From positions 1 through 59,160 of the IMG/VR virus record IMGVR_UViG_3300046504_000185: DNA of 59,160 bases; one strand, 5' to 3'. The notes beneath the pieces were generated by a model. It saw only the letters and a program-made list of their open reading frames with translations, was not told where the DNA came from and did not search any database. Positions 3,728 through 54,302 of this stretch are shown here, piece by piece. This DNA comes from a virus. The stretch's first letter is position 1. Each line of letters opens with the position of its first letter. A program made the translations under genes and the position numbers.

Positions 3728-3865
3728 GGGGAGATAGCAAAACAAAAAACAAAAAATACTATCTCAACTGCTCTCTTCAAAGAGAGAACTCGTAGTGTTT
3801 CCAGTAAAAGGTAAAGCAATTGAGTTGAAATCAATAGATTACAGGTTCGAGTCCTGTTCTCCCCA
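3728..3865 (+). tRNA. Interrupted tRNA, anticodon UGA (Ser codon UCA), with a 68-nt insertion in the D arm
   Basis: The 5' piece GGGGAGATAGC (3728-3738) gives acceptor GGGGAGA, which pairs perfectly with TCTCCCC at 3858-3864. The 3' piece carries anticodon arm ATTGA-GTTGAAA-TCAAT (3819-3835), variable AGATT, and T arm ACAGG-TTCGAGT-CCTGT (3841-3857). Between the pieces, 3739-3806 begins with an A/C-rich run, has a CTCTCT/AGAGAG hairpin and ends with boundary repeat C. Cutting at the repeat end leaves a 70-nt tRNA with a 2-bp D stem. Retaining bases from 3799 would give a GCTT/AAGC D stem. No CCA is encoded. The short variable loop is unusual for tRNA-Ser, so amino-acid identity is uncertain. 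Confidence 0.65.
3783..3806 (+). repeat. Boundary repeat copy C (3' end of the tRNA insertion)
   Basis: Ends with GTGTTTCCAGTA at 3795-3806 and shares 19 of 24 positions with copy B. It lies exactly where the insertion in the tRNA ends. Confidence 0.6.
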
Positions 3866-5486: not shown

Positions 5487-5503
5487 TTTTATTTATATAT
5501 TTG
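5475..5503 (+). promoter_or_regulatory. Bacteroidetes-type promoter for the Ro60-like gene
   Basis: TTG at 5475-5477, 18 nt, then TATATTTG at 5496-5503 (perfect TAnnTTTG), 22 nt before the ATG. The TTG overlaps the end of the antirepressor gene. Confidence 0.8.
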
Positions 5504-35229: not shown

Positions 35230-35897
35230 ATGATATTAGATGAATATGTTAAAATAAGATGGAATCAAAACAATAAAAAATATTATATTAAAAAAGGATA
35301 TAATTTTATTAAAATTGGTGATTTGTTTGACGTTAAAGTTGTTGATTTATCAAATGAAACGCATGTATTGGTCAATGTAAAATGTGATGTTTGTGGCAAA
35401 ATAAAAACAATAATATATAGGGAATATATTGCTAACATTAAAAACGGAAACTATTATTGCTGTTCAAGAAAATGTAGTATTGGTAAGAAAAATGAAAGTG
35501 TCTTAAAGAAATATGGAGTTAAAAATGTTTCACAATGTGAAGAAATTAAAGAAAAAAAATTGCAAACAAATATTAATAATTATGGTGAAATTTATATGAA
35601 ATATTTTCAGAGAAATTAAAATCACCAATACAACATGCATTAAATGGCGGTGAGAAAAAATTTGTTAGATACTATGTAGATGGCTATATTCCAAAGCATA
35701 ACATATGTATTGAATGGGATGAAAGACAACATAATGTAAAAAGAAAAATAGAAAGAGATAATAAGAAAGATGATTTCTTAAAAGAAACTTTTGGCTGTCA
35801 AATTATAAGAATTAAAGAAAAGGAATTTTTAAATAACGTTGATAATCAAACAGAATTTGTAATTAATACGATAAAAAACATGGTAAAAAATGAGTAA
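35230..35897 (+). pseudogene. Frameshifted endonuclease (zinc-finger N-terminus, Vsr/EDxHD-like C-terminus)
   Basis: The first frame runs 35230-35619 and has a zinc-finger-like CDVCG...CCSRKCS and the KYGVKNVSQ motif seen in phage homing-type endonucleases. A -1 shift near 35595-35605 (a TTTT run) continues the protein to the stop at 35895-35897. That part reads YYVDGYIPKHNICIEWDERQH, then FLKETFGCQIIRIKEKEF, which fits a PD-(D/E)xK nuclease of the Vsr/EDxHD type. The reconstructed protein would be about 222 residues. It overlaps the next ATG by 8 nt. It could be a decayed mobile nuclease, a sequencing error or programmed frameshifting. No clear slippery heptamer is seen. Confidence 0.65.
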
Positions 35898-36816
35898 GAA
35901 AGTAGCAGTACTATTTTCAGGTGGATTGGACTCCACCTATTTAGTTTGGAAAAACTTGAGTGAGGGTAATGAAGTTCAACCAATCTATGTTGAAATAGAA
36001 AACAATAAAACAAAAACAATTTTGGAAAAAAACCGTACAAAATTACTGGTGAGAGAATTTGAAAAAGAATTTCCACTTAAAATTCATGATGTTAAACATA
36101 TTCTGAAAGTCAATGTTGATGCACAAGAAGATAGTCTGTATTTTAAACAAGTACCTGTTTGGCTTCTTGCAATAGTATTTGCACAGGATTTAAATGTTGA
36201 TGAAATACAGATTGCCTATGTTGCAAATGATGATGCAATCGGTTATCTACAGGACATTCAGAATGTTTATAAGGCGTATGAACCACTTATGAGGTATCTT
36301 AAACCTTTGGTGTTTCCACTTTCTAAGAAACCCAAGTATGATATGGCGCATGAACTACCAGAAATGTATCGTAAATATATTTTTAGTTGTGAATATGCAA
36401 AAATTGTTGGCAGTGAAGATGCAGAATTCATCGAATATGAACCATGTTGTGATTGCGTACCTTGTAGTCATGCAATACAAAATGGTTATTATGGTTTAGG
36501 TCAATTTCCTGACAACTATAAGAACAATCTTTTGAAGGTTCGTGCACGTGCAGTACATGACATGGGATGTGATGTAATAGATAAACAAGGCAGAAAATTT
36601 GATTATTGGAATGGTTTCGATGGTACTCCAACTGTTGATAAAGAATCAGAACCAAAGGTAGAATCTAAAGGTCCATATCAGATTGAAATTACTTTTCCTG
36701 ATACATTTAAATCTCCCGAAATTTCATATAAGGAACTGGATAGTTGTGATTTAAAATTACCGATGGCAAAAAAAGAGAGACCTGTAGAACTTAGTTTGAA
36801 AGCATTTCAAGGATAA
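35890..36816 (+). CDS. QueC-like 7-cyano-7-deazaguanine (preQ0) synthase
   Basis: Near the N-terminus is the PP-loop SGGLDST (residues 10-16). The C-terminal half has a cysteine cluster CCDCVPC (from Cys186) with a further Cys about 17 residues upstream, matching the zinc site of QueC. QueC makes preQ0 from carboxy-deazaguanine with ATP and ammonia. In phages this usually serves 7-deazaguanine modification of DNA against restriction, in bacteria queuosine in tRNA. At 308 residues it is longer than typical QueC (about 220-240). The extra is a C-terminal tail. The partner enzymes (QueD, QueE, FolE, a DpdA-type inserter) are not in this window. Confidence 0.8.
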   Translation: MSKKVAVLFSGGLDSTYLVWKNLSEGNEVQPIYVEIENNKTKTILEKNRTKLLVREFEKEFPLKIHDVKHILKVNVDAQEDSLYFKQVPVWLLAIVFAQDLNVDEIQIAYVANDDAIGYLQDIQNVYKAYEPLMRYLKPLVFPLSKKPKYDMAHELPEMYRKYIFSCEYAKIVGSEDAEFIEYEPCCDCVPCSHAIQNGYYGLGQFPDNYKNNLLKVRARAVHDMGCDVIDKQGRKFDYWNGFDGTPTVDKESEPKVESKGPYQIEITFPDTFKSPEISYKELDSCDLKLPMAKKERPVELSLKAFQG

Positions 36817-41417: not shown

Positions 41418-42206
41418 ATGGCTAACTCAGAATTATATGGTAAGACGTTTCCTGTGCCCTCTGACGTGATTAAATATGTCCAGACGGTGTTGGTATCCAA
41501 CCCCAATGGTGAAGGCGTTAAAAGGGCAAAATTCATTGTTAAAAACGGTATATTGACTTATCAGGAATTAAAACGTTTGAAGAATTTTTTTGATACTTAT
41601 AATCCTGAAATAACCGATAAAATGCAATATGCTCTTGCAGGTGGTAATTTAATGAAAGCATTTGTTGATAAAACACTTCAGGCAGAAAGAAATGCAGTTA
41701 AAGGGGGAAAGGAGATAAGACGGGATATGAATATTGATCCTAATTTAGCCACACATGCTTATCAGACACCAAGACTATCAGAAGCAGAAGATAAAGATAA
41801 GAAAGAGGAAAAACAAAAAAATGCTGTTGCTGTCATTGTAAATAGTGATAATAAAATATTATTATTGAAAAGAGCAAAGATTAAAGATATTTGGATGCCG
41901 GAAAAATGGGCACTTGTTGGTGGCAGAATTGAAAAGGGTGAGACTCCGCAAAAGGCAGTTGAAAGAGAAATAACAGAAGAAACGGGTTTAACGATTGATA
42001 AGTTTATAAAAACTTTTGCAATACATAGAAATCCTGGTAGTATTGAACACATCTTTGCATGCCGTTATGATGGCGATCCGACTGACATTACTTTGAATGA
42101 AGAAAATACAAATTATGGTTGGTATGATATTGATGAAATGAATTATTTGGATATTGTACCGCATTTGATAGAATACATTACATTATCGTTTAAAAAATAT
42201 GAATAA
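41418..42206 (+). CDS. Nudix hydrolase fused to an N-terminal domain (262 aa)
   Basis: Residues about 135-255 are a Nudix domain with a complete Nudix box (GRIEKGETPQ, then REITEETGL), so it should hydrolyse a nucleoside diphosphate linked to another group. The substrate cannot be read from sequence. The first 115 residues (LYGKTFPVPSDVIKYVQTVL, then a helical segment) are a separate domain that I do not recognise. The gene is translationally adjacent to the 40554 gene in a late transcript. A Nudix enzyme expressed late could be packaged or act on nucleotides or RNA ends. Confidence 0.8.
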   Translation: MANSELYGKTFPVPSDVIKYVQTVLVSNPNGEGVKRAKFIVKNGILTYQELKRLKNFFDTYNPEITDKMQYALAGGNLMKAFVDKTLQAERNAVKGGKEIRRDMNIDPNLATHAYQTPRLSEAEDKDKKEEKQKNAVAVIVNSDNKILLLKRAKIKDIWMPEKWALVGGRIEKGETPQKAVEREITEETGLTIDKFIKTFAIHRNPGSIEHIFACRYDGDPTDITLNEENTNYGWYDIDEMNYLDIVPHLIEYITLSFKKYE

Positions 42207-43405: not shown

Positions 43406-44125
43406 ATGGCAGGAAAAGTTGATTTAAATAAGATAAAAGAAGAAATTGATGTCCGTAAAAAGGAAAGAGGCGTTATGACTGAAAGAGTTCAGGGTGCAAC
43501 ATTGATGCCCAAAGATCAGTTTTTAAATGGTTTAATGACCTCACTTCAAACAGGACAGGATACTGCAGCAACAAATTTAATAAAGTTAGTTGAAAATAAA
43601 ACTGCAGCAAAACACGGAGAAATAGTAAGACATGCTGTAAATGAAACAGTCTTACCGACAACAGTACCAACGGCAAATGTACGTCCAATTCAAGGTGGAA
43701 TACCACTTGAACAAGTAGATATGTCACCTGAAAGAGATGAACAAATGTTTCGTGATCTGGAAGCAAAAAGAAAGAAAACGTTGGCAGAATCAATGAATGA
43801 ATACATTAATGCACCGCATGTTGGTGCTCCAATGTCAAATCAACAAGTTGCTATTCCACCTGCAACAACATATATGAGTAATGGTACAACAAGAGTACCA
43901 ATGCTTAATGAAGCATATCTTGTCGAAAACGTAAATAAGATTGTTCACAATTATCTTGCTGAAAATCTTGGTCCGGTATTCGAAGAGGCAATCAAAAGCA
44001 CAATTATTGAAATGTATGCAGTTGAAAGAATCAAAGAAGTACTGCAAGAAAATCGAGAAATGATAAAGACTGTAGTTATTGAAACAATTAAAGAGATACA
44101 GGCAAGGAGTAAAAAAGCACAGTAA
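43406..44125 (+). CDS. Late-cluster protein of unknown function (239 aa)
   Basis: No known family. A helical N-terminus (VDLNKIKEEIDVRKKERGVM), a Pro/Val-rich middle (about 80-115 and 140-170) and a long C-terminal helix (VNKIVHNYLAENLG to the end) are seen. It has no membrane segment or cysteine cluster. A structural or scaffolding role is possible. Its stop codon lies inside a terminator stem. Confidence 0.65.
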   Translation: MAGKVDLNKIKEEIDVRKKERGVMTERVQGATLMPKDQFLNGLMTSLQTGQDTAATNLIKLVENKTAAKHGEIVRHAVNETVLPTTVPTANVRPIQGGIPLEQVDMSPERDEQMFRDLEAKRKKTLAESMNEYINAPHVGAPMSNQQVAIPPATTYMSNGTTRVPMLNEAYLVENVNKIVHNYLAENLGPVFEEAIKSTIIEMYAVERIKEVLQENREMIKTVVIETIKEIQARSKKAQ

Positions 44126-44140
44126 TCTGTGCTTTCTTTT
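44114..44140 (+). terminator. Terminator overlapping the stop codon of the 43406 gene
   Basis: AAAGCACAG (44114-44122) pairs with CTGTGCTTT (44127-44135), loop TAAT, then a T-rich run. Confidence 0.75.
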
Positions 44141-44153
44141 TATAATCAAGTTT

Positions 44154-44162
44154 GTATTTATT
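44154..44162 (+). promoter_or_regulatory. Late-type motif GTATTTATT
   Basis: 20 nt before the ATG at 44183. Confidence 0.55.
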
Positions 44163-44182: not shown

Positions 44183-47100
44183 ATGACATTTGCCGAATTT
44201 AAAGAGACTTTCTTACCTGAACTACTTAAAATCAAATCATTTAAAGGTAAAATGGACTATGCAAATCAACATTTGCAGAGGATCGGCAGTGGTACTGGCA
44301 GAGTTGTTTATGATATTGATGATGAAAAGATATTGAAATTAGCAAAAAACCCCAAGGGTATTGCACAAAATGAAGCCGAAGCAGGTGCAGGATATTATCG
44401 TGATACACATCATATTGTTGCAGTAGTATTTGATAGTGCCGATGATGATTCATGGTTAATTGCTGAAAAAGCAAAGAAAGTCAATGAAAAAAGAATTATT
44501 GAACTAACAGGCATTCCAAGCCTTAATGACTTGTGGATGTATCTCAAAAATTTTCATTCAAGTAATAACGGCAGAGGAAATATCTTTGGACTAAGTAAAG
44601 ATATTGTTGAACAATTAAATAATAATGAATTTGCACAGGATTTACAGAATTTCGTTGCAGATTATTCACAACAACCCGGAGATTATGGTAGACCAAGCAC
44701 TTATGGAGAAGTTCTTCACGATGGTCAACCATCAATTGTTTTAACCGATTATGGTTTAAATGATGAAGTATATGACACTCATTATAAGCCGAAAAAAGAA
44801 CGCATGTACGAACTCTATAATTTTGCTGATGGTAATGATGATATTCTCGGTGATCTGCCACCACAAGATGCTGTAGATACTCGTCAGGCTATGTGGGGTT
44901 TAATGCCTTATAGTGTTAGTGACGGTGAGGGACAAGAAGTTATAAATGAAAAATTTGTTTCATTTATTAATAATACTAACAAATATCCTACAAGAAGAAT
45001 ATTGCCAAGTACTCCATCCTTAATGGATGAATTTCACAATGTCGTAAATAATCTTAATGAAGTACTTGAAAAGGTCAGTGATAAAAAGAAATTTTATAAT
45101 AATTTATTAGAACTTCAAGATTATTTGATCCGAGGTAAATTCTATGATAGAGAACCATTACAAAAAGAAATGATTGAATTGGATGAAACCAATACACCAA
45201 AACTTAAACCAATGCAATTAGATAAAAACTATAGTAATGGTGTTGCAGAAAAAGTTGCGCAAAAATTAAATCTTGGTGCACCACAATATCTTGGTGGTGG
45301 CGGTTTTGGATATGCGTATTTAATTAATGGGAATAAGGTATTAAAAATAACAACAGATGTATCTGAAGTTGATGCAGGTCTGAAGATCAAAAGAGCAAAA
45401 CCTCAAGCACTTGTGGCTGTTTATAATATATATAAAATAGTTGATGCTGAAAATAATACCTCAACATATGCTCTCATTGAAGAACATATTGCCAATAAAC
45501 CAATAGATGAATTTTTTAAATATGTTTCGATTTTAAATGAAATCCAACCCGAACCCAATATATATGGAAATCTTATGATAATGTTAAGAAAAAAGAAACT
45601 TGATGAATATCAGGAATTAAGTCAAAAGATTTTAACCGAAAATCCAAATGCAGACATACCTCAGTCTGATAGACAAAAGGCATATAATTTTATGATGGGA
45701 TTTCTTGAAATCAAAAAAGAATTGATGCAACTTCAAATCAAATCTGACGATTATAGTAATTTAGAGAATGTGGGTTATAAAGATGGTATTTTAACATACT
45801 TTGATATTGGTGGTAGTTTTAATATAATGCAAGAACCACAACTTCCACCGGAAAATCGAATTGATTTACCGGAAGATGGTTCAGCAAGATTTTCAACCGT
45901 TGATTCTATTGGTAGAGATAATTTTCCTGCATATAATAATACAGATGATGGTTCTCCATTAACTGATCCTAATCTTCCTGTGAATATTTTTGCAGAAGAT
46001 TTGGAATATAATCATGTAGCAGGCGATGCAACACAAGATAAATTCCAGATCACTGAAAGAAAAATGTCTTATATGCCAGGTAGTCAAGCCGTTGAAGTTA
46101 AGAAAAAATGTAGATTGGCAGGTCTTGGCAATACTTCAACTGCTTGTAATCAGGGTGATATTAGCAATTTGAATTTCAAATCAATTGATGAAACTGCAGA
46201 TGTTAATATACCGGGTAAATTAAATGGATATGATTCACTTAAAATAATAGATGGAGATCAAGTTGTGGGTGAAGTTGGTATTATGGATAGGGGAGTTCAG
46301 GGCGGTAATCATTATATTGCTATTGATAAAATTTTTATCGATAAAAATTTCAGAGGTAATGGTTATGCTAATGATGCAATGAATTTAATTTTTGATTATG
46401 CTGATAAAAATAATATAATTGTTACATTAACTCCTGATAATATGTGGGGTGCAAGTGTACCTAAACTAAAAGCATGGTATAAATCAATAGGTTTTGTTGA
46501 AAATAAAGGCAAGAAAAAGGATTTTCAGACCATGCAGTTAATGTATAGATTGCCAAAGGGTCGTGTTAATGAAGAAATTGATGCGAGTGAAGCATATTGG
46601 GATTCAGGAGTAGTACGTACTATGATTCAAGGTAGAAAAGATGTTGGATTACTTGCATCTAAGTTATATCCTGATCTTTATAGTATTGCAGAAAAATATA
46701 ATTTCGGTTTGATTCCAATAAAACAAAGTGATCATAATTTAGATATGAATATTGTCTATCGCAAAACTCCAAGAGGCGAAGCCAATGCAAAGAAATTAGA
46801 ACAAATTATGATTAGTCATGGTGGATATGTTCAAGATAAAACACCTGAAGAAGCACGTGAAATTGGAAAATTATTGGATTATAGTGATGATTCAATTCAG
46901 CAATTCATAGACAGGATATACAAAAATGCTCCGAAAGCACCAGAGTATGCAGATTATCAAGAACTTAATGAACAAACCATTAAGGACTTTGAAAGTCAAA
47001 TTCATAAAGATAATAATACACATGAATTAGATAAATTTCATTTGTATGATCAGGATGATTTTAAAGTATATGCAGTTAATGGTGAAGCAGTACGTGACAA

Positions 47101-49285
47101 TGGTTTTGATGAATGGGTTGATGGCGGTCATCATTATGTTGATGCCGATGAAAAGCCTGAAGATCAGAAGTACGCCAAGTTCATACCTGAAGATGAAATA
47201 TGGGTTGATGATGTATTCTTAATTAAACCTAATGATCTTGCTGCAATATTATTGCATGAAAGACTTGAAAGATTTCTCATGAAGTATTATGGTTTGAAAT
47301 ATGAAAATGCGCATACCAATTTTGCTAATCCTGCAGAAGTTATTTTCAGAAAAAAAACAAAAGATGGTTTCGATGCTGATGTAAGTGATAAAATTTACAA
47401 TATATTTGTAAATAAATTTGCGAAGAAGCATAGCATGAAAAAAAAACTTAACGAATCACTAAGTGAAGCACAAATAATGTCATTACAAGACCTGCCATTT
47501 AATAAAGAAATTGAACAACTTGGTGGTAAAATCTATAGTGTAGGTGGTGCAGTTAGGGATGAATTTTTAGGAAAAGAATCTAAAGATTTGGATGTACTCA
47601 TTACAGGTGTTCCTATGGATCAACTTGAACAAGTACTTAGTAAGTATGGTCGTGTAGATGCTGTTGGCAAATCATTTGGAGTATTGAAATTTAAACCAGA
47701 AGGTGCAACAGAACAAATAGATATTGCAATTCCACGTACCGAAAAACCTTCAGGTGCAGGTGGTCATCAAGGTTTTGATGTGACTTCAGATCATGCTTTG
47801 CCAATTGAAAAAGATTTGGAACGTAGGGATTTTACTATTAATGCTATTGCAAGGGATGCCGAAGGTAATCTTGTTGATCCTTTTGGCGGTACGAAAGATT
47901 TAAAAGACAAAATTATTCGCATGGCTAATCCTGAAGCATTTACTGATGATCCTCTGAGAATGTTACGTGCTGTGCAATTCGCAAGTCGTTTCGGATTTAC
48001 GATTGAACCCGTAACTATGAAAATGATTCAAGAAACTGCAGAAAGAATTAAAGAAATTCCTGCTGAAAGAATTCTGACTGAATTAGATAAAATACTTAAT
48101 AAAGGCGACATGCGTGTTGGTGCACAACTATTGAAAGACACGGGTTTATTTCAACAAATTTTTGGATTTGATTTAGAACAATCAACAATTGATCGAACAC
48201 CTTTTGAAAGTATAAAAACAATGGGTGAATTTATATATCTGTTAACTAAATTAGTACCAAATCCATCAGCATTTTATAAAACTAATTTAAGGGGAGATAT
48301 AGATACCTTTAAAGAAATAAAAGCACTTGAAATGGCATTTAGTAATGCTGATATAAGTAATCCGATCATGGCAAGATCAATTGCATCGAACATGTATTTG
48401 ACTTCACCAAAGACTTTGGAAAGTCAAATCATACCTGAAGAAATTAAAACTGCATCACAGGAATTATTAAGTGGCAGATATCCAAAATCAATTAATGATC
48501 TTACAGTAAATGGTAATGATCTTATGGCATTGGGTTTACAAGGCAAAGAGATTGGCGATACACTAAAAACAATGCTTTTAAAAATTTATTCTGATCAAAT
48601 TAAGAATGATAAAAAAGAATTATTATCTTTAGTGCCGAAAAAAACTGATATTAATGAATTATATGATTATCCTAAATTACGTCCGGAAGAAATAGATACT
48701 TGGACTATAAATGGTCAGAAAGTTAAATTAAGTTTTTTCATTGAAAAATATGATATTTGGAATCAAGGAGTAATTCATGATCCTTCAAAACAATCAGTAT
48801 TAAGATTTTTAGAGGATGAATTTCCGGAATTTTTAGAAGATGAACATTTAAAAAAAGAATTACTTTGGGAATTAACTAATAGAGAATTACTTGATGAAGA
48901 TGATATGAGAAGAGTTTTATATAGTGCCGTTGTTCTTGATAGTGGTGCAAGATTCAGATTAGTTGAAAGGTTTAAAAAATATATTCCGGAAAACTATGAA
49001 ATTATTGCGCATCATATGACAATAAATATGGGTAAGATTGATCCCGAATATGAAAAATATTTGGGAATGTCAGTAGAATTAACTGTTGAAGATATTGCAA
49101 TAGACGATAAAGTAGTTGCAGTTGGCGTAAGTGGTTTTGGAACTAAAAATGCCAAAGCACATATTACTTTGGCAGTAAATACACTTGGTGGTGGAAAACC
49201 AAAAGATTCAAATAATTTAGTAAATTGGCAGAAAATAAGACGACCACTATTAATCAGTGGAAAAGTAACTGAAGTAACCAATTAA
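44183..49285 (+). CDS. 1700-residue multidomain protein: two kinase-like folds, GNAT, CCA-adding enzyme, 2H phosphoesterase-like end
   Basis: Domains in order: a kinase-like fold (GSGTG loop at 35-39, Lys52, DYG at Asp189); a second one (GGGGFG at about 371, Lys388, DIGG at Asp541); a GNAT acetyltransferase (about 690-795, RGNGYA at 724); an unrecognised segment with HERLERFLM and YENAH (about 1020-1060); a full class II CCA-adding/poly(A) polymerase-type enzyme (about 1100-1490: GGAVRD at 1121, DLD at 1135-1137, RRDF at 1214, NGNDLMALGL in the C-terminal domain); and a 2H-type end with HHMT (1610-1613) and HIT (1660-1662). Neither kinase-like fold has an obvious HRD loop. Together the C-terminal third suggests tRNA end repair. 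Late expression suggests the protein may be packaged and injected. No proteolytic cleavage sites can be assigned. Confidence 0.8.
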   Translation: MTFAEFKETFLPELLKIKSFKGKMDYANQHLQRIGSGTGRVVYDIDDEKILKLAKNPKGIAQNEAEAGAGYYRDTHHIVAVVFDSADDDSWLIAEKAKKVNEKRIIELTGIPSLNDLWMYLKNFHSSNNGRGNIFGLSKDIVEQLNNNEFAQDLQNFVADYSQQPGDYGRPSTYGEVLHDGQPSIVLTDYGLNDEVYDTHYKPKKERMYELYNFADGNDDILGDLPPQDAVDTRQAMWGLMPYSVSDGEGQEVINEKFVSFINNTNKYPTRRILPSTPSLMDEFHNVVNNLNEVLEKVSDKKKFYNNLLELQDYLIRGKFYDREPLQKEMIELDETNTPKLKPMQLDKNYSNGVAEKVAQKLNLGAPQYLGGGGFGYAYLINGNKVLKITTDVSEVDAGLKIKRAKPQALVAVYNIYKIVDAENNTSTYALIEEHIANKPIDEFFKYVSILNEIQPEPNIYGNLMIMLRKKKLDEYQELSQKILTENPNADIPQSDRQKAYNFMMGFLEIKKELMQLQIKSDDYSNLENVGYKDGILTYFDIGGSFNIMQEPQLPPENRIDLPEDGSARFSTVDSIGRDNFPAYNNTDDGSPLTDPNLPVNIFAEDLEYNHVAGDATQDKFQITERKMSYMPGSQAVEVKKKCRLAGLGNTSTACNQGDISNLNFKSIDETADVNIPGKLNGYDSLKIIDGDQVVGEVGIMDRGVQGGNHYIAIDKIFIDKNFRGNGYANDAMNLIFDYADKNNIIVTLTPDNMWGASVPKLKAWYKSIGFVENKGKKKDFQTMQLMYRLPKGRVNEEIDASEAYWDSGVVRTMIQGRKDVGLLASKLYPDLYSIAEKYNFGLIPIKQSDHNLDMNIVYRKTPRGEANAKKLEQIMISHGGYVQDKTPEEAREIGKLLDYSDDSIQQFIDRIYKNAPKAPEYADYQELNEQTIKDFESQIHKDNNTHELDKFHLYDQDDFKVYAVNGEAVRDNGFDEWVDGGHHYVDADEKPEDQKYAKFIPEDEIWVDDVFLIKPNDLAAILLHERLERFLMKYYGLKYENAHTNFANPAEVIFRKKTKDGFDADVSDKIYNIFVNKFAKKHSMKKKLNESLSEAQIMSLQDLPFNKEIEQLGGKIYSVGGAVRDEFLGKESKDLDVLITGVPMDQLEQVLSKYGRVDAVGKSFGVLKFKPEGATEQIDIAIPRTEKPSGAGGHQGFDVTSDHALPIEKDLERRDFTINAIARDAEGNLVDPFGGTKDLKDKIIRMANPEAFTDDPLRMLRAVQFASRFGFTIEPVTMKMIQETAERIKEIPAERILTELDKILNKGDMRVGAQLLKDTGLFQQIFGFDLEQSTIDRTPFESIKTMGEFIYLLTKLVPNPSAFYKTNLRGDIDTFKEIKALEMAFSNADISNPIMARSIASNMYLTSPKTLESQIIPEEIKTASQELLSGRYPKSINDLTVNGNDLMALGLQGKEIGDTLKTMLLKIYSDQIKNDKKELLSLVPKKTDINELYDYPKLRPEEIDTWTINGQKVKLSFFIEKYDIWNQGVIHDPSKQSVLRFLEDEFPEFLEDEHLKKELLWELTNRELLDEDDMRRVLYSAVVLDSGARFRLVERFKKYIPENYEIIAHHMTINMGKIDPEYEKYLGMSVELTVEDIAIDDKVVAVGVSGFGTKNAKAHITLAVNTLGGGKPKDSNNLVNWQKIRRPLLISGKVTEVTN

Positions 49286-49295
49286 ACATATTAAA

Positions 49296-49964
49296 ATGAT
49301 TGAATTTAATAATAATAAATTTAAAATATTTGGTGATTTTCTTGAAGATGTGACATTGGATGAATTGTTGGAAAAAAATTCATTAACATATAATGATAAT
49401 AAGAAAGGAAAAAAAAATAAAAAGTGGGATTTAGTTTCTTTAAAAATCATTTGGTGCGGCATCGATCCCAAAATGGTATTAAGAACAAAATTTGAGGTTA
49501 AAGGGGATTATATTTCAGCAGGAAGTAATAGAGTATGGATTGAAGTGTTTGGGCATGATGGTAATTCAGGATTAAGTACTACTGAAGCAGATTGGTGGAT
49601 AATTATAACCGGATTTGAAAGAATATGGATAAAACCATTTGAAATTTATCGTTTTATTGAAACACATCCAGAGGCACATAATGGACGTGAACCAGAACTT
49701 GGAAGTGGCGATGATTATATTAAGTTTGTATATAAATTAAATAGAAAAATTTTATGTCCATATATTTATAGTTTAAATGATAAGAAAAAAGCATTTATTA
49801 CAATGATTCCAGAAAATAATCCGTTATTTTGGTTTAATTGCTTGCCCTTAAATCCTGATATGAAAAAATGTATTGAGGGAGCATTAATAAGAGCAAAGGA
49901 ACTTGGATATGATGTTTCTAAATATAATGTAGAATACGATGGTAAAGAGATTAGCAGTATTTGA
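49296..49964 (+). CDS. Protein of unknown function (222 aa)
   Basis: No family recognised. It is rich in aromatic residues (WIEVFGHDG, ADWWIIITGFERIWI) and looks like a globular alpha/beta protein. It starts 10 nt after the multidomain gene and its end overlaps the HAD_SAK gene by 26 nt, so the three are probably translated from one transcript. It ends with TGA inside the next gene's FDFDG motif. Confidence 0.7.
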   Translation: MIEFNNNKFKIFGDFLEDVTLDELLEKNSLTYNDNKKGKKNKKWDLVSLKIIWCGIDPKMVLRTKFEVKGDYISAGSNRVWIEVFGHDGNSGLSTTEADWWIIITGFERIWIKPFEIYRFIETHPEAHNGREPELGSGDDYIKFVYKLNRKILCPYIYSLNDKKKAFITMIPENNPLFWFNCLPLNPDMKKCIEGALIRAKELGYDVSKYNVEYDGKEISSI

Positions 49965-50505
49965 TTTTGATGGAACACTTATAGATTCTCCCGAAAAAGA
50001 ACAAGGGAAGGTTCAATGGTCAGAGAAAAAGGGTGAACCATTTAAATATCAGGGATGGTGGGGCAGACCTGAGAGTTTGGACTTGGACGTTTTTGATATT
50101 AAACCATTTTCAAGTGTGTTGAATCAATTAAAAAAAGAAGCATCAACACCAGATACTGTTGTTTTAGTTCTTACTTCAAGAATGGAAAAATTACGTCCGC
50201 AGGTTGAAGCAGTCCTTAATGTTAATCATATTACTGATCTCATTAGTAAAATCGATATGAAACGTGCTGAAGGCAATAAGGGTATAAAAGTATTGCGTTA
50301 TGTTAATGCGTATCCGGATTTGGAAGAAATAAATGTTTATGAAGACCGTGATACGGATATTCAGGCATATGAAGCCATTAGAAATAAAATTCCTGAAGGA
50401 ATAACGTTTAATATTTATCTGGCAGTAAATGGTAAAATATCTTTGCTTGAAGCAGAAAGCAAGTTATTGAATATTATCAACGAAGAAATTCAAAAATTTA
50501 TTTAA
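49939..50505 (+). CDS. HAD-superfamily phosphatase of the Swiss Army Knife RNA-repair type (HAD_SAK)
   Basis: The motif FDFDGTLIDSP (from residue 8) is HAD motif I with both catalytic aspartates. It is followed at about residue 35 by KYQGWWGRPESL, the GWW signature of the HAD_SAK family. LVLTSRME is motif II and VYEDRDTD is motif IV. Family members are named for predicted roles in RNA repair, where a phosphatase would act on RNA ends. At 188 residues it is a single domain. It overlaps the preceding gene by 26 nt, with this ATG needed to keep motif I. The nearby CCA-adding/2H protein supports an RNA-end role by association. Confidence 0.75.
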   Translation: MVKRLAVFDFDGTLIDSPEKEQGKVQWSEKKGEPFKYQGWWGRPESLDLDVFDIKPFSSVLNQLKKEASTPDTVVLVLTSRMEKLRPQVEAVLNVNHITDLISKIDMKRAEGNKGIKVLRYVNAYPDLEEINVYEDRDTDIQAYEAIRNKIPEGITFNIYLAVNGKISLLEAESKLLNIINEEIQKFI

Positions 50506-51866: not shown

Positions 51867-54302
51867 ATGGACGGAAAAATCAGAATTTTATTCTATAACT
51901 TAGATGGCGCAGGCGTAAACTACTTCAGAACACAAACACCAGCAATGGAACTTGATAGAAATCATGGTAATGAGTTTTACACAGAAATAAATCCACAGAT
52001 AGACTTTAATGATCCCAAAATTGTTGATTATCTTAAAACATTTCACATCATACATTATCACCGTCAATTTCTTGGTGATACAAAACAAATGGTTCAATTA
52101 GCAAATGAACTGCATAAATCCGGCACAATATTAATGGTTGATATTGATGACTATTGGAATCTACATAAAAAACATCCATTTTATAATCTTGCACAAGAAA
52201 AGAAATTACATATACCAATCTTGGAAAACTTGAAAATTGCTGATTATGTTACTACAACTACAGACATATTTGCCGATGAAATTCGTAAGGTAACATTGAA
52301 AGATAACGTAGGTGTATTCTATAACTCAATCAATCCCCAATGGATGAAACAATTTCAAAATAATTGGAAACCAGACCCTGATGGGTTAGTAAGAATAACA
52401 TATATGGCAGGTTCTTGTTATGATGACCAAACTGAAATATTGACAGAAAATGGGTTTAAATTATTTAAAGATTTGAATATGGATGAAAAGGTAGCAACTC
52501 TAAATTCAAGTGGTGAATTAGAGTATCAATTACCTACAGATTATACAAACGAAGAATATTTTGGTGATATGTTTTATGGTAAAAATAAAAACATAGATTT
52601 TGCTGTAACTCCTAACCATAATATGTTTGTTCATAAATCAAAATCACAAAATAGAAGAAAACCATTTAATTTTAATTTAAATAAAATGGAAAATTTAAAT
52701 GGTTATGATTTAACATTTAAGAAAAATTGTAAATGGAATGGCAAAGAAAAGGATTTTTTTACATTAGAAAAATGTAATTCTGTATTTAAAGAATTTAATG
52801 ATATTAATTTTGAAATGGATGATTGGTTGAAATTCTTTGGATATTGGATTGGTGATGGGTGGGCAACGTGTGATGGTAGTAATCAAGTTGGCATTTGTGG
52901 TGTTAAAGAATCATCAATAATAACAATGAAAGAAATTGAAACCATATTGATTAAATATGGATTTAATCCTACTTGGACTAAAGATGGTATTCAATTAAGA
53001 ATATTTAATCAGCAATTATTTAAATATTTAAATCAATTTGGTGGTGCAAATGATAAATTTATTCCAAATGAAATTAAGAATTTATCAAGTAGGCAATTAC
53101 AAATTTTTATTGATTATTATTTAAAAGCAGATGGCACGATTAGAAAAAATGGAAGATTGTCTTGTGATACAATTTCAAAAAATTTAGTTAATGATTTTAG
53201 TGAAATTGCATTAAAATTAGGTACTTGTGTTACGGTTAAAAATAGGGGTATTAGAACATCAATAATGAAAGATGGAAGAATTATTACAGGCAAACATGAT
53301 GGTTATTGTTTAAATTTTTATGGAAAGGGTGTAAAAAGTCAATTAACACCAACAGTTAACGTGAAAGATATTGTAAAAAAAGAATATCGAGGCAATATAT
53401 ATTGCGTAACAGTTCCTAATCATATATTATATATCAGAAGAAACGGTTTTTCGTATTGGTGTGGTAATTCTCACATGGGTGACATGGAACAACTTGATGG
53501 CGTAATGAATGTATTATCAAATGATTTTAGTATAAAAGATAAATTCAAAGTAATCATTGCAGGTTGGGATACTGAGGGTAATACTACTGATATTACATTT
53601 AATCAGGAATTTGGTGAAGAACTTCAGAAGATTGGACTATGGACCATTAATACGGTTAAAATTATTAATAAAACCCGTGGTAATGTAGATATGATACCTA
53701 AATTACCTGAAGCATTGAAAGAGAAATACAGGGGTAAGGTATTCAGCACAAATCAAAGAGATATTAAATCCGAAGAAAGTGTATATTTGATCTATGAAAA
53801 TATGTTAACGGATAATCATCGCATGATTATAAATCCCGATTATATTCAATGGTTAAAAAATTATGAAAGGAATGTCAGTTATCCGGATGAAGGCAACTTT
53901 GCCCGTAGATGGACGCAAAAAGCAAATACATATGCACAAGTATTAGATGAAACTGACATTGTTATTGCACCACTTGCCGATAATCCATTCAATAGAATGA
54001 AGTCAAATTTGAAACAAGTTGAATGTTGGTCAAGAAAACTTCCGATTGTTTGCAATGATATGCCGCCATATAATGTTCATGGCAGACATTTAGAGAATTG
54101 TATATTAATTCCCAATGAAAAAAATGCCAGAAAGTATTGGCAGAAGTATTTAAAGAGACTGATATTAGATGCTGACCTTCGTAAACAACTTGGTGAACAA
54201 CTATATGAGGACTTTAAAGACGAATATAACTTAACGACTGTAACAAAGAAACGTGCGGACTTTTACAGGGCAGCAGTTATGAAAACATTAGCAGTAGTTT
54301 AA
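51867..54302 (+). CDS. Glycosyltransferase (GT-B type) interrupted by an intein
   Basis: The exteins (residues 1-183 and 535-811) join into a roughly 460-residue glycosyltransferase of the GT4 sort: an N-terminal Rossmann domain (LFYNLDGAGVNYFRTQTPA, IHYHRQFLGDT, MVDIDDYW), the intein at the ITYMAGS/SHMGDMEQLD junction, and a C-terminal domain with VIIAGWDTEG and IVIAPLADNPFNRMKSNLKQVE, the latter the usual donor-binding region. The donor and acceptor sugars are unknown. With the GT9-like gene at 23579 it is the second glycosyltransferase in the window. It starts after a terminator and a late-type motif. Confidence 0.85.
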   Translation: MDGKIRILFYNLDGAGVNYFRTQTPAMELDRNHGNEFYTEINPQIDFNDPKIVDYLKTFHIIHYHRQFLGDTKQMVQLANELHKSGTILMVDIDDYWNLHKKHPFYNLAQEKKLHIPILENLKIADYVTTTTDIFADEIRKVTLKDNVGVFYNSINPQWMKQFQNNWKPDPDGLVRITYMAGSCYDDQTEILTENGFKLFKDLNMDEKVATLNSSGELEYQLPTDYTNEEYFGDMFYGKNKNIDFAVTPNHNMFVHKSKSQNRRKPFNFNLNKMENLNGYDLTFKKNCKWNGKEKDFFTLEKCNSVFKEFNDINFEMDDWLKFFGYWIGDGWATCDGSNQVGICGVKESSIITMKEIETILIKYGFNPTWTKDGIQLRIFNQQLFKYLNQFGGANDKFIPNEIKNLSSRQLQIFIDYYLKADGTIRKNGRLSCDTISKNLVNDFSEIALKLGTCVTVKNRGIRTSIMKDGRIITGKHDGYCLNFYGKGVKSQLTPTVNVKDIVKKEYRGNIYCVTVPNHILYIRRNGFSYWCGNSHMGDMEQLDGVMNVLSNDFSIKDKFKVIIAGWDTEGNTTDITFNQEFGEELQKIGLWTINTVKIINKTRGNVDMIPKLPEALKEKYRGKVFSTNQRDIKSEESVYLIYENMLTDNHRMIINPDYIQWLKNYERNVSYPDEGNFARRWTQKANTYAQVLDETDIVIAPLADNPFNRMKSNLKQVECWSRKLPIVCNDMPPYNVHGRHLENCILIPNEKNARKYWQKYLKRLILDADLRKQLGEQLYEDFKDEYNLTTVTKKRADFYRAAVMKTLAVV
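52416..53468 (+). mobile_element. Intein with LAGLIDADG homing endonuclease
   Basis: The intein occupies residues 184-534 (351 aa) of the 51867 product. It begins CYDDQTEIL (Cys1). Block B is TPNHNMFV, the two dodecapeptide motifs are FFGYWIGDGW and FIDYYLKADGT, block F is RGNIYCVTVPNHILYI, and block G is YWCGN followed by Ser+1 of the C-extein. The catalytic Cys1, terminal Asn and Ser+1 are present. The usual penultimate His is Gly. Both dodecapeptides keep an acidic residue, so the endonuclease could be active. The intein codons are more A/T-rich than the exteins. Confidence 0.9.

Follow-up and report, generated by a model that had tools for sequence, protein, structure and literature searches.

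A giant phage polyvalent protein that joins a CCA-adding enzyme to a tRNA-ligase-type cyclic phosphodiesterase and carries candidate prohead-protease sites at its domain junctions

We describe here a giant protein of an uncultured virus, encoded on IMG/VR record IMGVR_UViG_3300046504_000185, all 59,160 bases of which were analysed (hereafter, the window). Its open reading frame (ORF) spans 44183..49285 on the + strand, like every feature whose coordinates are written with two dots below, and encodes 1700 residues from an ATG start with zero internal stops, in agreement with an earlier note on this DNA. The chain unites a number of enzymatic domains of different kinds, which makes it a polyvalent protein, and its source is a T4-like jumbo virus of bacteria. 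Among these domains are a complete CCA-adding enzyme and a C-terminal 2H phosphoesterase of the type that forms the cyclic phosphodiesterase (CPD) part of fungal tRNA ligases. The new observation is that, as judged from related sequences, the inter-domain junctions are strongly enriched in the motif of the T4 gp21 prohead protease. We consider it evenly balanced whether the giant is a polyprotein that is packaged, cut by the prohead protease and injected, its CCA-adding enzyme and CPD, possibly with a neighbouring HAD phosphatase, healing tRNA 3' ends.

The earlier note had recognised a complete CCA-adding enzyme, and the profiles agree. The domain at 47474..48646 (aa 1098-1488) matches the Pfam families PolyA_pol (4.6e-23) and PolyA_pol_RNAbd (6.3e-16), with a tRNA_NucTran2_2 tail (22.4 bits), and PHROG 2244, tRNA nucleotidyltransferase (4.4e-65). 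The NCBIfam CCA model NF009814 aligns over positions 10-393 of its 396, with a score of 167.8 bits that is under the equivalog cut-off of 290 and exceeds the PcnB score for the same domain (116.3 bits). The domain can also be aligned to the solved CCA enzymes 6ibp and 1miv. Its catalytic motifs GGxxRD, KDxD, RRDxxxNA, (E/D)DxxR and ERxxxE are invariant wherever the position is present (up to 53 aligned homologues). By sequence the domain is a full-length class II nucleotidyltransferase, and CCA addition, instead of the addition of only A, of only CC or of poly(A), is the predicted activity that the profiles suggest. The CCA enzymes of E. coli and M. tuberculosis possess an HD domain, which has been credited with 2',3'-cyclic phosphate removal (PMC10673834). 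We looked for an HD motif (e.g. FHDIGK) in the CCA enzymes fused to a phosphodiesterase and it was absent in all of them; such a motif is present in the CCA enzymes of the related loci L014 and L107.

The last domain of the chain (48905..49279, aa 1575-1699) carries the motifs H-M-T and H-I-T, and profile and fold place it in the 2H phosphoesterases of the CNPase / fungal tRNA-ligase CPD type. The two HxT motifs pointed out in the earlier note are nearly invariant: in an alignment of 31 homologues (A1) the segments HHMTIN and H[IV]TLAVN hardly vary, H47-x-T49 being invariant and H96-x-T98 conserved in at least 90%. The Pfam family of fungal tRNA-ligase phosphodiesterases, PF08302, matches 28 of the 31 members at E up to 1 (best 7.8e-8), and scores 22.3 for the window domain and 27.2 for the relative L108 against a gathering score of 23. 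A search of the 2H profile against solved structures gave only chance Myb matches. The AlphaFold model (pLDDT 93.6) has a predicted 2H fold nearest CNPase and the CPD of the fungal ligase Trl1: it matches the CNPase catalytic domain with a Z score of 13.5 over 125 residues (13% identity) and, with 11.3, the CPD of 6u05, a fungal RNA kinase-CPD structure, against 7.1 for anti-CBASS Acb1 and 6.1 for LigT. These values support the comparison with the fungal tRNA-ligase CPD made in the earlier note, which had staked its reading on a 2H fold in structure prediction and on intact CCA catalytic residues among homologues; both are present. Members of the CNPase and Trl1 families convert a 2',3'-cyclic phosphate into a 2'-phosphate and a 3'-OH. 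A small domain (48653..48904, aa 1491-1574), identified by its conservation in relatives, usually stands just N-terminal of the 2H domain. One 2H homologue (L010:10007-10390) has PYII in place of PHIT at the second motif and may therefore be inactive.

Since the 2H fold is shared with Acb1 (Z 7.1), the domain might instead act in counter-defence, as a nuclease breaking down cyclic nucleotide signals, a kind of role proposed for the 2H domains of polyvalent proteins (PMC5512222). A separate, Acb1/LigT-type 2H domain does lie between the CCA enzyme and the CPD in L001 (402-1535) and, weakly, in L005 (aa 1808-1907), and chains of this type thus hold two different 2H enzymes. For the window domain, however, we judge an Acb1-like function quite improbable: the CNPase and Trl1 folds are much closer, and the domain is fused or linked to CCA enzymes, P-loop kinases, HAD_SAK phosphatases and RNA ligases. 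The domain gave no Acb1 profile match at E up to 1. A search against the PADLOC collection of defence proteins came back empty, a result of little weight.

These linkages are recurrent. Scans of IMG/VR returned 238 matching stretches and at least 75 distinct 2H-domain relatives in environmental phage contigs, which rules out that the giant is a singleton. Among the 75 domains, fusion to a CCA enzyme is seen in 26 and fusion to a P-loop kinase in 7; another 24 are encoded by solo genes that follow a CCA ORF at a distance of no more than 4 kb. An HAD_SAK-like phosphatase is downstream of, or fused to, the 2H domain in 47 of the 75 loci. In the window the conserved downstream neighbour (49939..50505) is a separate gene for an HAD phosphatase similar to HAD_SAK_1 (Swiss Army Knife RNA repair; Pfam 25.5 bits, cut-off 25.6), whose DxD motif residues D9 and D11 are invariant in 12 relatives. 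In L078, one chain joins 2H, NleE-like, CCA and HAD domains. Taken together, the CCA, kinase and HAD linkages support a role of the 2H domain in RNA-end healing. As the CCA enzymes of L029, L031, L032 and L034 are only ~27% identical to that of the window, the pairing of CCA and 2H is either old or repeated. The HAD neighbours in L004, L005, L006, L030, L069 and L084 have a C-terminal extension domain beginning YVYHGTxDGAGxxIQRxG, possibly with an ADP-ribosyltransferase-like fold.

The domains recur in the order K1-K2(-K2)-GNAT-NleE-like-MP-like-CCA-W-2H (K, kinase-like; MP, metallopeptidase), either in a single ORF or spread over 2-4 ORFs. The full-length fusion is also found in the independent contigs L073, L074, L075, L077 and L086, and an assembly or frame artefact can thus be ruled out. 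Among 50,697 records of cultured phages, no protein covers more than about a quarter of the giant, and the only cultured relative is in Agrobacterium phage Atu_ph07 (29%, E 1e-4), ~9 kb from the CCA gene of that phage. One scan of cellular genomes, which covered 84,980 species and used one conserved pattern of 7 residues, produced just one weak match (L038), and the family therefore looks viral, within the limited sensitivity of such a scan. The earlier note knew of no described protein with this architecture. For the exact combination this holds among the cultured-phage records, but its kind is already described, as polyvalent proteins with kinases, GNATs, Pol-beta nucleotidyltransferases and 2H domains (PMC5512222).

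The linkage to kinases and ligases deserves separate consideration. Fusions of a P-loop kinase and a CPD, of ~310 residues, are found in L024, L025, L026, L101, L105, L108, L110 and L115 and correspond to the kinase-CPD half of the fungal tRNA ligase. The CPD could thus mend anticodon-loop nicks together with RNA ligases encoded elsewhere, in the healing-and-sealing style of fungi and plants, with the CCA enzyme acting separately. Its fold is nearest CNPase and the Trl1 CPD, RNA ligases are encoded in most related contigs (above the Pfam cut-off, PF09414 in 13 of 22 and PF09511 in 9 of 22), and in L108 two RNA ligases are encoded close to the kinase-CPD gene, one of T4 Rnl1 type at ~1.2 kb and another at ~6 kb. 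However, in the clade of the window the CPD is tied to the CCA enzyme, not to a kinase or ligase. Pfam and NCBIfam profiles gave no match to a ligase or P-loop kinase in the giant chain, and a Trl1-like single-chain ligase is ruled out by the lack of a ligase domain. RNA ligases had no match in record G013 and none above cut-off in G010 or G014 (records that may be incomplete), and a search of 23 records for a Tpt1-type 2'-phosphotransferase found none. We regard anticodon-nick repair by the CPD as an unlikely explanation.

Another explanation comes from the tRNA genes. The tRNA-Met gene of the window ends ...CGCTACTATG, without an encoded CCA, and in the window and related loci CCA is missing directly after the discriminator in 71 of 81 tRNA genes. 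Hence, maturation of the phage's own tRNAs is a live alternative: the giant would be an unpackaged late fusion protein whose CCA enzyme matures the CCA-less tRNAs, whose CPD tidies ends, and whose other domains modify the host after expression. Record G014, with at least 22 tRNA genes plus a CCA-CPD gene, fits this explanation, whereas the part of G006 that was read (about 180 of 349 kb) has a single tRNA gene despite its CCA enzyme. Moreover, a cyclic phosphodiesterase is unneeded for tail adding alone, and the junction motifs described below would be left unexplained. We think own-tRNA maturation alone somewhat unlikely. The earlier note had also imagined the giant finishing split tRNAs of the phage, which are hypothetical. 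The Rfam scan of the window gave tRNA matches only; one of them, at 3803-3857, close to the tRNA-Met gene, is incomplete (Rfam tRNA positions 9-63), perhaps because extra sequence interrupts or splits the tRNA.

The N-terminal part of the giant is a series of further domains. The earlier note had seen two kinase-like folds. The fold is supported for the second (K2; 45215..45877, aa 345-565), which has a Gly loop, K388, D523/N529 and D541-x-G, and whose confident model matches the PKR kinase with Z 10.5 over 152 aa and, in Foldseek, APH(2''); K2 is duplicated in some relatives. It is not for the first (K1; 44240..45133, aa ~20-317), which is recognised by motifs only (GxGxGR Gly-rich loop, the invariant lysine K52, E66 and D189-Y-G), has a poor structural model and matches phrog_4301 (6e-11), a PHROG with no assigned function. 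The GNAT acetyltransferase of the earlier note (46169..46558, aa 663-792) was found both by Pfam (Acetyltransf_1, 22.6 bits, cut-off 20.7) and by fold (GCN5, Z 11.7 over 114 aa). Two domains had escaped that note, as had the junction motif. The first (46568..46927, aa 796-915) is like the NleE/OspZ cysteine methyltransferase family in fold (Z 11.8, rmsd 2.1, 115 aa, 21% identity), at sequence scores under the curated cut-offs (NCBIfam NleE_fam 1.8e-6, 27.5 vs 75 bits; Pfam NleE 4.4e-5, 23.6 vs 27). Such a domain is present in many phage giants, which suggests a phage reservoir of the NleE/OspZ fold. The second (46985..47407, aa 935-1075) is possibly metallopeptidase-like, with H1025-E1026-x-x-E1029, H1044 and E1052; this HExxE...H...E pattern is conserved in 12 sequences and has no family match. 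As the model of aa 1-1096 is poor overall (pLDDT 67), fold does not settle the nature of K1 or of the metallopeptidase-like domain.

The linkers between these domains carry candidate protease sites. T4 gp21 cleaves after L/I-x-E (PMC9026906). In the giant, such sites are LDE (45179..45187, aa 333-335) between K1 and K2, ITE (46049..46057, aa 623-625) between K2 and GNAT, LNE (46964..46972, aa 928-930), a double LNE|SLSE|A (47447..47467, aa 1089-1095) directly ahead of the CCA enzyme and INE (48650..48658, aa 1490-1492) at its C-terminal end; a VNE (46565..46573, aa 795-797) in the linker after GNAT is V-x-E and not L/I-x-E. The low-confidence linkers of the model, 329-337, 564-670, 794-797, 915-933 and 1081-1096, contain LDE, ITE, VNE, LNE and LNE/LSE, respectively. 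At the position ahead of the CCA enzyme, relatives have MNE|AEIMSLQDLP, INE|AEIMSLQ and the like. Counting [LIM][NTS]E at most 40 aa before a domain in the relatives of the window protein, we found it before 28 of 41 CCA enzymes (shuffle mean 6.9), 26 of 40 K2 (5.3), 11 of 20 NleE-like (2.8), 6 of 11 MP-like (1.1) and 7 of 12 2H domains (2.2), and at 5 of 16 junctions of a sixth type (1.4); as the statistics use related sequences, the shuffle counts are not strict probabilities. The control motifs [LIM][NTS]D and [LIM][NTS]K are at background level at junctions, and the density of INE is 10-fold higher in linkers than in domains.

Could the chain be cut by its own metallopeptidase-like domain rather than by a prohead protease? 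The conserved HExxE...H...E pattern is compatible with this, and autoproteolysis by MPTase domains has been proposed for other polyvalent proteins (PMC5512222). Yet many giants with the junction motif, among them those of L073, L077, L086 and L084, give no metallopeptidase-like match, and the motif is identical to the maturation site predicted for the capsid proteins. Self-cleavage thus seems very improbable to us. In relatives, the predicted N-terminal maturation site of the gp23-type capsid proteins (a site placed by comparison with T4) reads MINE|S, LTE|A or ISE|T, and among 22 related contigs an S77 protease is found in 12 and gp23 in 15. In G014 (L156-L163), an N-terminus like M[KR]NLIKKILKE is common to at least a dozen proteins, and the pattern M[KR]xLIKKILKE| also occurs in a CCA-CPD fusion; by its sequence it is probably a capsid-targeting peptide. 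The G014 proteins with this type of N-terminus are candidates for packaging in the capsid of a jumbo phage. In the giant itself, we could not establish that FLPE|L (around position 13) is a capsid-targeting peptide.

Several observations weigh against a packaged and processed tRNA-healing protein. The S77 protease and the capsid gene are absent from the 59-kb window fragment. A strong, genome-wide N-terminal capsid-targeting signal is seen in G014, which is farther from the window than G006. In the latter, N-terminal [LI]xE gives a weak signal (20 vs 13.6) and is exceeded by [LI].K. The linkers are rich in E, and there is a mild enrichment of [LIM][KRD]E (another fit to LxE) at junctions and of the reversed motif before the CCA enzyme. 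The second HxT is lost in one relative (L010). The CCA domain may merely mature phage tRNAs, given the many tRNA genes without CCA. Finally, the product of a CNPase-type enzyme, a 2'-phosphate, would need removal, yet the 23 records yielded no Tpt1.

Under the packaged-polyprotein reading, the giant would be made alongside the virion proteins of the T4-like jumbo phage and would probably be drawn into the prohead. There, the S77 (gp21-type) protease would cut after [L/I/M]-x-E in the linkers between folded domains and set free the enzymes (kinase-like, acetyltransferase, NleE-like, CCA-adding and CPD) for entry into the next host together with the DNA. As a set, they look suited to mending sabotaged tRNAs and to taking control of the host. 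Where a metal-independent RNase has left a 2',3'-cyclic phosphate, the CPD would open it to give a 2'-phosphate and a 3'-OH; the neighbouring HAD phosphatase may strip the remaining phosphate, and the CCA enzyme, which needs a 3'-OH, would rebuild the acceptor end. Where related phages combine a kinase-CPD fusion with RNA ligases, this CPD could serve nick sealing. We infer these steps, from packaging, cleavage and injection to the substrate and the product, from sequence. A cycle of CCA-end cleavage and repair has a precedent in eukaryotes, where angiogenin cleaves the CCA end and CCA is re-added (PMC3757041). Repair of host tRNA and injection with the DNA, both raised in the earlier note, are plausible and not mutually exclusive; the module may target host-cleaved tRNA, the phage's own CCA-less tRNAs, or both. 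The more specific proposal, that the packaged and prohead-cut giant delivers a ligase-independent tRNA 3'-end repair module at infection and so undoes a host tRNase defence, is tentative and, on balance, somewhat doubtful.

The surroundings of the gene contain signals read in the sequence. At the end of the preceding gene there is a terminator-like hairpin, AAAGCACAG-TAAT-CTGTGCTTT, followed by a T run (44113..44141), and therefore the giant gene may begin its own transcription unit. A promoter-like box TATTTATT (44155..44162), called by consensus resemblance only, lies 20-27 nt ahead of the ATG. It is one base off TATTTATA, a motif seen upstream of about ten other window genes. For late expression, as claimed in the earlier note, this resemblance is the one sign. 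On the + strand of the window TATTTATA occurs 20 times, vs 4 for TATAAATA, often 15-60 nt 5' of genes (for example at 5490, 14451, 23524, 28435, 32929, 40531, 42209, 43368, 50509 and 51821), and is a candidate late promoter of the phage. The conserved upstream neighbour of the giant is a separate gene for a Nudix hydrolase (41418..42206, Pfam 1.1e-19). The window also carries tail-fibre and virion-structural genes, a B-family DNA polymerase, a DnaB-like helicase and a QueC-like gene; the latter, at 35890-36816, suggests a 7-deazaguanine-type DNA modification. Positions 51867-54302 encode a protein of 811 aa whose relatives have ~460 aa. Its ~340 extra residues, past position ~185, match segments common to the thymidylate synthase, ribonucleotide reductase and PhoH families, and look like an intein.

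These results show a large group of uncultured phages in which a tRNA-ligase-type cyclic phosphodiesterase is physically tied to a CCA-adding enzyme, and this tie suggests a ligase-free way to reverse acceptor-end tRNA cleavage. The junction motifs provide a testable sign, at the sequence level, that phage polyvalent proteins can be polyproteins processed by a protease, in the same maturation step as the capsid. The relative of the NleE fold hints at the origin of such effectors: if it is genuine, the NleE family of bacterial effectors could have come from phage polyvalent proteins.

Among known systems, the T4 internal head proteins and Alt, which are processed by gp21, resemble the giant in its candidate L/I-x-E cuts and in the S77 protease and gp23 of its relatives. 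They differ in that many candidate sites here lie among many enzymes of one chain, for which packaging is what we infer. The HD-domain CCA enzymes of E. coli and M. tuberculosis unite CCA addition and 2',3'-cyclic phosphate removal in one chain, as predicted for the phage protein, which has no HD domain and carries an unrelated 2H domain instead. Fungal Trl1 (ligase-kinase-CPD; kinase-CPD 6u05) has the same CPD fold and HxT motifs, and its kinase-CPD fusion is mirrored in the phages of L024 and L108, whereas the CPD of the window is fused to a CCA enzyme and not to a ligase or kinase. Vertebrate CNPase, of the 2',3'-cyclic phosphodiesterase type, is the nearest solved fold, but the phage-encoded domain is half its size and 13% identical; anti-CBASS Acb1 has the 2H fold in common, with a much weaker match. 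A further parallel is with the phage polyvalent proteins, as far as the accessible text of PMC5512222 describes them: they too have disparate enzymes in each chain (kinase, GNAT, Pol-beta nucleotidyltransferase, 2H and, here, a possible metallopeptidase) and single-domain genes nearby as cassettes. In that text, however, the Pol-beta nucleotidyltransferases are mostly fused to ArdC-N, whereas the giant has a full CCA enzyme, a 2H domain of CNPase/tRNA-ligase type and junctions with T4-type protease motifs. Likewise, the 2H domains of polyvalent proteins are never associated with RNA ligases in the accessible text of PMC5512222, a point on which the kinase-CPD of L108, encoded near RNA ligases, differs.

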